IMG/VR virus record: IMGVR_UViG_3300031977_002878
Location: 1 to 29,673 of that record
Length of the DNA: 29,673 nt
Origin: a virus
Strand: one strand, 5' to 3'
Shown: one piece after another, positions 881 through 29,673 of the stretch
How positions within the stretch are numbered: position 1 is the stretch's first letter
Layout: each line of letters opens with the position of its first letter
The notes under the pieces: model-generated
Told to the model about the DNA's origin: nothing
The model's input: the letters and a program-made list of their open reading frames with translations, nothing else
Databases searched by the model: none
Position numbers and translations under genes: made by a program

Positions 881-1155
881 GCCGCTACCCCTTCACGGGT
901 AGCGGCTTCGCGGGTCAGCTCGGCGCATCTGGCGTAGGCCGCTACCGCGATCAGGTAGCGAGCGCTCGGCTCGTAGGTTTTCACCACGGACTCAATCAGG
1001 AATTCGCTGTCATCGGCGGCAAACGCCCGTTCGCCGAGCGCGAGTCCGTCGTCGCGATACTCGTTGGCGTTCAACCACGCCTGCGCCGACCCATCGCTTT
1101 CGTCTGCGTAGGACTGGCGGGCGTTTTCGATCCGGTCTTCTTCGGCGCGGGTCAT
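877..1155 (-). CDS. Small hypothetical protein
   Basis: This encodes 92 residues with an acidic N-terminal half and an Ala-rich C-terminal helix (residues about 55-85). I recognise no family, signal peptide or membrane segment. It is the second gene of the PL operon and overlaps its neighbours by 4 bases on both sides, so it is probably co-translated with them. A function cannot be inferred. Confidence 0.7.
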   Translation of the reverse strand: MTRAEEDRIENARQSYADESDGSAQAWLNANEYRDDGLALGERAFAADDSEFLIESVVKTYEPSARYLIAVAAYARCAELTREAATREGVAA

Positions 1156-1346
1156 GTCGGCACCTCAACGACGCGCCGCAACATGCAGGTTGCGTTGGCA
1201 TGTCTCTCGCGAGCCGCCACGTCCTCAATGTCGGCATTGGCGGCATATGCGGACTTAAAGCGGCTGCCCCCCACGATCCATCCACCGTACTTAGCGCCGA
1301 CATAAACTGCGACGGCGTAGGGGGTGCTTGTGTTCTTGCGTGCCAT
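1152..1346 (-). CDS. First gene of leftward early operon, hypothetical
   Basis: This encodes 64 residues from the ATG at 1346-1344. That start was chosen because a GGGAG ribosome site lies about 9 bases upstream. The longer open frame to 1412 would start inside the PL promoter and operator. The N-terminal half is probably beta-rich (AVAVYVGAKYGGWIVGG) and the rest helical. It is the promoter-proximal gene of the PL operon, about 20 bases from the predicted transcription start. No family is recognised. Confidence 0.7.
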   Translation of the reverse strand: MARKNTSTPYAVAVYVGAKYGGWIVGGSRFKSAYAANADIEDVAARERHANATCMLRRVVEVPT

Positions 1347-1371: not shown

Positions 1372-1400
1372 AAGTTACGCGCGGTAACGGATAGACGCAA
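1372..1400 (-). promoter_or_regulatory. PL: leftward early promoter
   Basis: On the minus strand, -35 TTGCGT (1400-1395), a 17-base spacer and -10 TAACTT (1377-1372) precede the leftward operon. Predicted transcription starts near 1365, leaving a short leader with a GGGAG ribosome site before the ATG at 1346. The perfect operator 1374-1388 covers the spacer and -10, so a bound repressor would block polymerase. Confidence 0.6.
1374..1388. promoter_or_regulatory. Operator OL1 (GTTAC-N5-GTAAC, perfect)
   Basis: The 15-bp inverted repeat GTTACGCGCGGTAAC overlaps the PL -10. The same arms and 5-base spacer recur at 1910-1924 over the PR -10, which marks it as a binding site for the repressor, the Cro-like protein or both. 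Confidence 0.65.
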
Positions 1401-1407
1401 GCAGAAA

Positions 1408-1422
1408 ATCACTCACGGTAAC
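1408..1422. promoter_or_regulatory. Operator OL2 (degenerate left arm)
   Basis: ATCAC-TCACG-GTAAC has one perfect arm and one arm with two mismatches. It lies 34 bp centre-to-centre from OL1, the same distance as between the two OR sites. It sits upstream of the PL -35. Confidence 0.4.
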
Positions 1423-1464
1423 GCAATCGGCCATTATTTCAGGCGGCGTCCGCTTCTGGCGTGG

Positions 1465-1851
1465 CTATCCGGCAATCTTTAAAAGCTGCTCAATCGCATC
1501 GGCCACTGCGGTGCGCCGGGCCTCCGGGGCCTCTCGATAGGCGTTGATTATGCGGCGCTCGTTCGGGGTCAGCTCGGGCTCTGCGGTAAGGGGCTGGCCT
1601 TCGCCTGTCAGGAGCCAGGTCCAGTTGACCCCGAACTTCTTGGCGAAGCGTGCGGCTGTCTGGTGGTCTAGGGCAATGTGCTTTGACGAGTCCGGGCGGC
1701 GCTCATAGGCGCGGTATGTCCCCGGCTTGAGGCCGATGCTTTCGGCGGCGGCTTCGGCGTTCGGTGACAGGCCGTTCTCTTCCTGCCAGCGCATCCGAGA
1801 CCAGCGCAGCCGGTCCCAAGTGCCTTCGGTGTCCTGCCATCGCGTTTTCAT
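1465..1851 (-). CDS. CI-like repressor with helix-turn-helix
   Basis: This encodes 128 residues from the ATG at 1851-1849, which fits the adjacent promoter; an in-frame extension to 1941 would run through the operators. Residues about 25-82 form an XRE-type helix-turn-helix domain: PNAEAAAESIGLKPGTYRAYE followed by AARFAKKFGVNWTWLLTGEG, the typical end of phage repressor DNA-binding domains. The C terminus (90-128) is a short helical tail, probably for oligomerisation. There is no S24/LexA-type self-cleaving domain, so induction must work differently from lambda CI. It is divergent from the Cro-like gene, with two operators between them. It is the likely keeper of lysogeny. Confidence 0.85.
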   Translation of the reverse strand: MKTRWQDTEGTWDRLRWSRMRWQEENGLSPNAEAAAESIGLKPGTYRAYERRPDSSKHIALDHQTAARFAKKFGVNWTWLLTGEGQPLTAEPELTPNERRIINAYREAPEARRTAVADAIEQLLKIAG

Positions 1852-1887
1852 GCGCCAGATATTACGGGCGGGAACGGCACTACGGGT
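1852..1887 (-). promoter_or_regulatory. PRM-like promoter for the repressor
   Basis: The minus-strand -10 TAATAT (1864-1859) is near consensus, but the -35 position holds only ACCCGT, a poor match. The degenerate operator 1876-1890 overlaps this weak -35, which suits activation by bound repressor. The predicted start, near 1852, coincides with the repressor ATG, so the message may be leaderless. Confidence 0.5.
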
Positions 1888-1890
1888 AAC
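1876..1890. promoter_or_regulatory. Operator OR2 (degenerate left arm)
   Basis: GGCAC-TACGG-GTAAC has one perfect and one two-mismatch arm. It lies 34 bp from OR1, matching the OL pair, and overlaps the -35 region of the repressor promoter. Confidence 0.45.
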
Positions 1891-1897
1891 TTTGCGC

Positions 1898-1926
1898 TTG
1901 ATTGGTCCGGTTACTGCGAGTAACGT
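1898..1926 (+). promoter_or_regulatory. PR: rightward early promoter
   Basis: -35 TTGATT (1898-1903), a 17-base spacer and -10 TAACGT (1921-1926). The layout is the same as PL. Predicted initiation falls at about 1933, the first base of the Cro-like ATG. Confidence 0.6.
1910..1924. promoter_or_regulatory. Operator OR1 (GTTAC-N5-GTAAC, perfect)
   Basis: GTTACTGCGAGTAAC has the same arms and spacing as OL1. It covers the PR spacer and the first four bases of the -10. Confidence 0.65.
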
Positions 1927-1932
1927 GGCCAC

Positions 1933-2118
1933 ATGACGCACTCCGAAATCGTAGGCACCCTTGGCGCAAAAGCTATCGCGGACCGCATCGGCGTTCCCGC
2001 TGGTCGCGTCCGGGTTTGGAAGGCCCGCAAGGTCATTCCCCGGTCCGCATGGGCCGAGCTGATCGACGCCTTCCCGACCGTCACGCTTGAGCTGTTGAAG
2101 GCTGGCGAGGCCGGATGA
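1933..2118 (+). CDS. Cro-like helix-turn-helix regulator
   Basis: This encodes 61 residues: a short N-terminal helix, then a helix-turn-helix (GAKAIADRIGVPAGRVRVWKARK, about residues 11-33) and a C-terminal helix with PRSAWAELIDAF. The size and position, divergent from the repressor and first after PR, are those of Cro-family repressors that drive the lytic choice. No ribosome site is visible and the PR start falls on or next to the ATG, so translation may be leaderless. The assignment rests on fold pattern and position rather than a specific family signature. Confidence 0.8.
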   Translation: MTHSEIVGTLGAKAIADRIGVPAGRVRVWKARKVIPRSAWAELIDAFPTVTLELLKAGEAG

Positions 2119-2762: not shown

Positions 2763-2770
2763 CAATGACC
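2753..2770. promoter_or_regulatory. Inverted repeat at divergent gene starts
   Basis: GGTCATT-CATC-AATGACC has perfect 7-base arms. It overlaps the ATG of the leftward gene and lies 19 bases before the start chosen for the rightward HTH gene. It is a possible operator, unlike the GTTAC sites. Confidence 0.35.
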
Positions 2771-2788
2771 CAGACAGGAACAGACTTC

Positions 2789-3157
2789 ATGCCCGCCCCT
2801 CGGCAACTTTTCGACCCGCGTATGGCGGAGGCGCTTGCCGCCCTGCTGAACCAGAAACACACGACCGCGAAGCAGATCGCCCGCGCGTACCAGATCGACC
2901 CGTCAACCGCTGAGAACCTCCGCAAGGGGCACCTGTCCGTGCCGACCTTGGAGAAGGTGGTCAAGGCGGAAGGCTGGGGTCTCTGGGCTGCGCTGGGGCG
3001 TGAGCTGACGGGCCTGTCCTACGAACAACACCTTCAATCCGTCATAGAGCAAGAGGCCCATGAACAAGCCCAAAGAGAAGCCGCGCGGGATCACGTTCGC
3101 CGTCTGGAAGAACGCGCCGCTGAGTTGGTCGCTGTATCTGGTCGGACTGCGGCTTAA
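2789..3157 (+). CDS. Helix-turn-helix protein with C-terminal coiled coil
   Basis: This encodes 122 residues from ATG 2789, chosen over an in-frame ATG at 2765 because AGGAACAG lies just upstream, whereas the earlier ATG has no ribosome site and lies in the inverted repeat. Residues about 18-60 form a helix-turn-helix (TTAKQIARAYQIDPSTAENLRKG). Residues about 80-115 form a charged coiled coil (EQEAHEQAQREAARDHVRRL). It is first in the rightward replication operon and is probably a transcriptional regulator. Lambda CII holds a similar place, but no homology to CII is visible. Confidence 0.7.
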   Translation: MPAPRQLFDPRMAEALAALLNQKHTTAKQIARAYQIDPSTAENLRKGHLSVPTLEKVVKAEGWGLWAALGRELTGLSYEQHLQSVIEQEAHEQAQREAARDHVRRLEERAAELVAVSGRTAA

Positions 3158-3633: not shown

Positions 3634-3791
3634 TCGCCCGCATCCTCTCCCTGTTCCGCCCCCGCCCTGCCTATCCCGTTGCCAAGGCCCGTTACGACGA
3701 CGCCAAGAGCCGGGGAGACACCCGCGCCATGAGCGAGGCATGGGGAGCGATGTTTCGGGCTCGCAATGCTGATCTGAGGGCTGGACGATGA
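3630..3791 (+). CDS. 53-residue basic hypothetical protein
   Basis: ATG 3630 overlaps the preceding stop, and TGA 3789-3791 overlaps the next ATG. The product starts MIARILSLFRPRPAYPVAKARYDDAKSR cut here to its first part for length: a short hydrophobic lead, then a basic helical segment with an Ala/Met/Arg-rich end. No family is recognised. Support comes from exact overlaps and codon use like its neighbours. Confidence 0.55.
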   Translation: MIARILSLFRPRPAYPVAKARYDDAKSRGDTRAMSEAWGAMFRARNADLRAGR

Positions 3792-29461: not shown

Positions 29462-29593
29462 GCGGAAAAGGGTTTACAGTCTGCCCCCCGGCGGAACGCC
29501 TCGTGAACGTATTGTGGTGGAAATTGTGGGGGGCACGGTCCCGCGACCATCCCGACGTTCCCCGCCCGTTCCGGTTTTGGCTAAACTCTCGGC

Positions 29594-29631: not shown

Positions 29632-29673
29632 GCGGATGTGGCGGAACTGGTAGACGCACTGGATTTAGGTTCC
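29632..29673 (+). tRNA. tRNA-Leu(UAG), 5' part, cut by window end
   Basis: Acceptor GCGGATG, then TG, a D-arm with GGTAGACGC and an anticodon loop TTTAGGT give anticodon UAG. The sequence resembles bacterial tRNA-Leu(UAG) closely up to the window end. The 5' side faces the phage genes and the variable arm onward is missing. It may be a host gene flanking the prophage or a phage-borne tRNA. Confidence 0.85.

Follow-up and report, generated by a model that had tools for sequence, protein, structure and literature searches.

A conserved variant of the lambdoid switch, with three right and two left predicted operators, in phages apparently of Caulobacteraceae

The DNA analysed here (the window) is a 29,673-base virus record from IMG/VR that contains P22-type portal, terminase, major head, head-closure, and DNA-ejection genes, together with a replication initiator and an endolysin. 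Positions 1372-1926 and their neighbours very probably form the immunity region of a short-tailed, temperate phage; this judgement belongs with the whole reading developed below. Two divergent genes lie around a shared operator: one for a CI-like repressor (1465-1851, minus strand; 128 residues), the other for a Cro-like helix-turn-helix (HTH) protein (1933-2118, plus strand; 61 residues). A preliminary description of the region had proposed a compact lambda-like switch, and the gene pair bears this out. The first leftward gene after the PL promoter (1152-1346, minus strand; 64 residues from its ATG) received no functional assignment, and is not conserved among relatives. No integrase was found in the window record, perhaps because the record is a fragment; integrases are present in relatives.

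Family searches and an AF2 model place the repressor HTH at about residues 8-85, followed by two carboxyl-terminal helices (96-127). The model (pLDDT 87.5) displays a lambda-repressor-like HTH domain, then the two helices, and no peptidase. Family matches are likewise to HTH domains only, in agreement with the earlier statement that the protein has no S24 cleavage domain. Fold matches to its amino-terminal domain include ImmR (Z 9.8), P22 c2 (Z 9.0), and 434 Cro (Z 8.7); a PDB sequence search gave weak matches only. All 18 aligned repressor members match a PHROG transcriptional repressor family.

The Cro-like protein carries an HTH apparently of the carph-isopro type (NF046037), a term not found in the literature searched. 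This family is matched by 13 of 13 aligned Cro-like proteins (best E 4e-12), the window protein itself scoring E 4.8e-6 and 26.7 bits, under the curated cut-off of 38 bits. Its AF2 model (pLDDT 94.5) is closest among solved structures to Xfaso 1 Cro (Z 7.4, rmsd 2.2, 58 residues); P22 Cro (Z 6.2) and N15 Cro rank lower, among many HTH proteins.

Flanking the repressor gene are 15-bp dyads of the form GTTAC-N5-GTAAC. The two perfect copies, OR1 (GTTACTGCGAGTAAC, 1910-1924) and OL1 (GTTACGCGCGGTAAC, 1374-1388), are the sole exact ones in the 29,673-base record, and contain the first four bases of the predicted -10 elements of PR and PL, respectively. Each has, upstream in the sense of its promoter, a degenerate partner with two mismatches that starts exactly 34 bp from it: OR2 (GGCACTACGGGTAAC, 1876-1890) and OL2 (ATCACTCACGGTAAC, 1408-1422). 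These four sites and their spacing had been reported from first inspection, and stand as reported. A symmetrised matrix made from 33 sites of seven other phages, with the window left out, ranks them first to fourth among about 29,660 window positions (scores 19.7, 18.4, 13.4, and 13.1; next best, 8.2). The best scores in Markov shuffles averaged 9.9, the largest being 13.4. Across ten whole phage records, 32 of the 34 matches to GTWAC-N5-GTWAC with at most one mismatch are right or left operator sites (each palindrome counted once); the backwards control pattern gave 19 matches.

The right side contains a further predicted site that is absent from the preliminary description. With up to two mismatches, GTTAC-N5-GTAAC has eight matches in the window (shuffle mean, 3.99), five of which fall within the 551 bp from 1374 to 1924. 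The fifth, OR3 (ATTACGGGCGGGAAC, 1861-1875), abuts OR2 at a distance of 15 bp and ends 9 bp short of the repressor start codon. Read on the repressor strand (GTTCCCGCCCGTAAT), it overlaps TAATAT, the likely -10 element of the repressor promoter PRM. By matrix alone OR3 ranks only ninth in the window, with p=0.0009 at that single position when the matrix holds no OR3 sites, and only its location and the evidence of relatives make it a convincing candidate operator.

The promoters themselves were predicted by inspection and from aligned loci. PR (1898-1926, plus strand) reads TTGATT-N17-TAACGT, with its -35 at 1898-1903 and its -10 at 1921-1926; PL (1372-1400, minus strand) reads TTGCGT-N17-TAACTT, with its -35 at 1395-1400 and its -10 at 1372-1377. 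The likeness claimed for the two holds: both spacers are 17 bp, and both -10 elements contain TAAC. Because a generic sigma-70 scan of the window listed neither, these predictions rest on comparison with relatives. In 13 aligned loci, the window included, the PR -35 (mostly CTTGC-like) sits between OR1 and OR2, the PR -10 shares a TAAC or TAAT with OR1, and 6-8 nt separate this -10 from the cro ATG.

For PRM, the predicted -10 (TAATAT, 1859-1864, minus strand) lies 7 nt before the repressor ATG, and TAAYRT-like motifs are found 7-8 nt before that codon in nearly all 13 loci. PRM has no recognisable -35; the corresponding position falls inside OR2. In almost all aligned loci OR2 begins 39-40 bp ahead of the repressor ATG and so lies over the PRM -35. 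In the window only 6 nt lie between the end of the PR -10 and the cro ATG, and the PRM -10 is similarly close to the repressor ATG; both mRNAs, cro and cI, are therefore predicted to be leaderless. The PL leader of the window has an AGGGAG ribosome site, and most PL genes of the aligned loci have ordinary leaders with ribosome sites.

Searches of viral contigs returned nine relatives at 58-81% identity, and distant relatives mostly at 40-52%. Named phages gave no DNA matches, and named phages and plasmids gave no protein matches. A first scan of genome contigs found no homologue; a second led to a Brevundimonas MAG, and homologues are present also in eight other genomes of its family (299 searched), two of these being weak. 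The phages that carry the switch apparently have hosts in the Caulobacteraceae. Thirteen loci, counting the window, were aligned in detail. Across the mosaic flanks of the relatives, only the repressor and cro genes are conserved.

Relatives that keep the repressor while losing the sites would speak against the proposal; every close relative keeps the sites, and the mirrored pairs at PR and PL recur in the related loci. Over about 20 such loci, OR1 and OR2 are 33-35 bp apart, or 44-45 bp (one helical turn more), and OL1 and OL2 are 32-35 bp apart. The window and most of group 1 have an OR1-OR2 distance of 34 bp, group 2 has 33 or 35 bp, and L027 and L013 have 44-45 bp. These spacings fall in one helical phase (vector strength 0.93), a value that is indicative only, because it was judged against uniform spacings and the loci are relatives of one another.

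All eight loci of group 1, the window among them, display OR1, OR2, OR3, OL2, and OL1, with OR3 15 bp after OR2. This position scores high in L003, L004, L005, L013, L016, and L027, and weakly in L006. The four loci of group 2 all keep OR1, OR2, OL2, and OL1; in two of them (L007 and L014) OR3 lies at OR2+25, one helical turn further. OR3 was not found in L015 and L029. No conserved position for a third left operator was found within 150 bp of OL2 in 12 loci. Because OR3 is conserved and no third left site is, the predicted layout is three right sites and two left, and the "two-site, not three-site" arrangement of the preliminary description is wrong for the right side. A separate observation concerns L014, in which the cro-like gene holds an extra site (GTAACCTCGGGGAAC, 3768-3782; one mismatch) at 233 bp upstream of where the repressor starts.

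The half-sites drift jointly. L025 has a CTTAC half-site at all five positions (one with two mismatches) at spacings of 34, 15, and 33 bp; L026 also has CTTAC half-sites, at a spacing of 35 bp, its degenerate third site being read by eye; and L021 has ATTAC half-sites at spacings of 35 and 15 bp. Among loci from Caulobacteraceae-family genomes, L039 has ATTAC (OR1 to OR3, 49 bp; OL, 35 bp), L040 has GTTAC (34 and 34 bp), and the left dyads of L042 are 34 bp apart. Half-sites that change as a set under a constant layout would be expected of operators tracking a co-evolving repressor.

This evidence bears on a quite different assignment, in which the repressor acts elsewhere and the GTTAC sites serve mainly the Cro-like protein or a regulator of the host. 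Conservation beside the sites is as good for the Cro-like gene as for the repressor gene, so that the sites could follow either protein. However, sites flank both sides of the repressor gene, as in other lambdoid switches, and joint drift in phages whose hosts are related speaks against a host protein; such an assignment is very improbable.

Sites, spacing, conservation, and joint drift, together with the gene pair and the predicted folds, point with high confidence to a five-operator, lambda-like switch run by a non-cleavable, CI-like repressor of 128 residues. This protein, transcribed leftward from PRM, would bind all five dyads. PR (for the cro operon) and PL (for the left operon) would be the divergent early promoters; OR1 and OL1 would occupy their -10 elements, and OR2 and OL2 would lie 34 bp upstream, just past the -35, such that each strong-weak pair brackets a -35 element. 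The repressor most likely occupies its sites in pairs (OR1 with OR2, OL1 with OL2), blocking PR and PL. The regular spacing of 33-35 bp, or one turn more, is suggestive of cooperative binding between paired dimers that would together exclude RNA polymerase.

OR2 and OR3 would cover the -35 and -10 of PRM, allowing repressor at high level, or the Cro-like protein, to turn this promoter down. A higher repressor level would thus fill OR3 and limit further repressor synthesis. Since OR2 lies over the predicted -35 of PRM, activation of this promoter from OR2 in the manner of lambda looks unlikely. The Cro-like protein would probably bind these operators in competition with the repressor, and thereby favour lytic growth.

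The layout could be fixed partly by promoter spacing instead of cooperative binding. In the strict form of this alternative, the five operators are independent, there is no dimer-dimer contact, each is filled by its own affinity, and 34 bp is where sites fit around the -10 and -35. Phage 933W provides a parallel, being proposed to fill its operators by individual affinity, with a repressor reported as non-cooperative and with OL3 missing (PMC3317979). In the present loci, too, OR1 and OL1 are strong, OR2 and OL2 are weak, and each pair has the -35 between its two sites. But the OR1-OR2 distance jumps by one helical turn in L013 and L027 (44-45 bp) rather than varying freely, and OL2, which covers no promoter of its own, is nevertheless kept at 32-35 bp. 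Fully independent filling is on these grounds rather unlikely, and cooperative pairs are preferred.

A second alternative, raised in the preliminary description, is a mirrored switch with two sites on each side that acts through DNA looping between OL and OR across about 530 bp. The PR and PL pairs are equal in layout, and OR1 and OL1 are 536 bp apart in the window and 537 bp apart in L004, L005, and L006. Across loci, however, this distance varies between 485 and 1,498 bp, and the values do not share a strong helical phase (0.24 at 10.5 bp per turn; at most 0.46, at 11.0). Other evidence also tells against such a mechanism: the third right site is conserved; five loci carry extra DNA between repressor and OL; and the repressor does not have the lambda-type carboxyl-terminal domain used in octamer formation. 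A two-site looping switch is accordingly improbable, and looping across about 530 bp is not supported as a conserved feature. The variation weakens the case for a fixed 530-bp loop and leaves room for looping as such; lambda loops over a longer distance than that seen here.

In L003, L007, L014, L015, and L027, about 0.3-1 kb of additional DNA separates the repressor gene from the left operator. Lambda keeps rexAB in this position, and the additional DNA is a candidate for lysogen-expressed cargo genes.

The lambda switch is a textbook gene circuit, known mostly from enterobacterial phages. The five-operator switch preferred here resembles those of lambda, P22, and 434 in its gene order (PL-cI-PRM/PR-cro), in its operators on early promoters, and in the HTH fold of the repressor amino-terminal domain and Cro. 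As in lambdoid phages, three right operators (at 1861, 1876, and 1910; conserved in group 1) lie over PR and PRM; the left operators number two rather than three, and the repressor has 128 residues with HTH matches only, in place of an S24 repressor. Lambda has three left sites, a centre spacing of about 24 bp, a cleavable repressor, and an OR2 centred near -42 of PRM, whereas the centre of OR2 here lies near -32 relative to the predicted PRM start.

Among non-cleaved HTH repressors, phage 186 CI gives a weak amino-terminal match in sequence and fold (2fjr, E 0.25), but has a larger carboxyl-terminal oligomerisation domain (189-residue chain) and another operator layout. The 933W repressor is a full-length lambdoid CI; by comparison, the present system has a 128-residue repressor without S24, 15-bp sites, 34-bp pairs, and a carph-isopro Cro. 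Phage 933W likewise has three right and two left operators, no OL3, and divergent cI and cro (PMC3317979, PMC10742460). Gifsy GfoR/GtgR, likened by description, are short repressors without a cleavage motif (136 residues there, 128 here; PMC3121763). For the combination of 15-bp sites, 34-bp pairs, a short repressor, and a carph-isopro Cro, no description was found in the literature searched. On the sequence comparisons made here, the case that this is a genuine and well-conserved variant, new among lambdoid switches, is well supported.

The lambda-switch idea recurs here, with a minimal repressor, in phages apparently of Caulobacteraceae. More tentatively, these loci may represent a Caulobacteraceae-type class of switch, with a fixed grammar of three plus two operators, a non-cleavable repressor that only represses, leaderless cI and cro mRNAs, and a trans-acting inducer. 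Such a class would have no lambda-type self-activation, because OR2 and OR3 cover the PRM -35 and -10. Natural variants (drifted half-sites, one-turn insertions, and OR-OL distances of 0.5 to 1.5 kb) allow a comparative test of which parts of the layout matter.

Because the repressor is without an S24 domain, induction cannot be by S24 cleavage, and what induces a prophage whose repressor cannot be cleaved becomes a testable question. Precedents for non-cleavable repressors are the Gifsy and 186 antirepressors under LexA control (PMC3121763). In contrast to Gifsy, no antirepressor is recognised here: the window ORFs scanned contained no match to an antirepressor family. LexA-type boxes were considered and set aside as evidence. 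GTTC-N7-GTTC occurs four times in the window, and other spacings are equally frequent in relatives; its counts there are 9 versus 1 by orientation, with similar numbers for other spacings (N8, 15; N11, 14), and several matches lie inside coding or ribosome-site sequence. CtrA sites had no match in the window or in the loci scanned.

Near the right end of the window, two opposed GTTC-N7-GTTC motifs (29494-29508 and 29557-29571) lie 63 bp apart; they are possible LexA boxes, and by the controls are not above chance. An HTH-like gene family (MSV.VIKAITR.IR...) is found downstream of cro on the minus strand in L015 (2821-3225), L025 (2544-2945), and L026 (2966-3382), and its members start within a few bases of GTTC-N7-GTTC.

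Downstream of cro in the window, a third small HTH protein of 130 residues (2765-3157, plus strand), with weak HTH_37/HTH_26 matches only, is a possible CII-like regulator. Finally, the extreme right end (29634-29673; GCGGATGTGGCGGAACTGGTAGACGCACTGGATTTAGGTTCC) resembles the 5' portion of a tRNA-Leu gene that is truncated where the record stops, and the last few hundred bases of the window may be host DNA or adjoin an attachment site.
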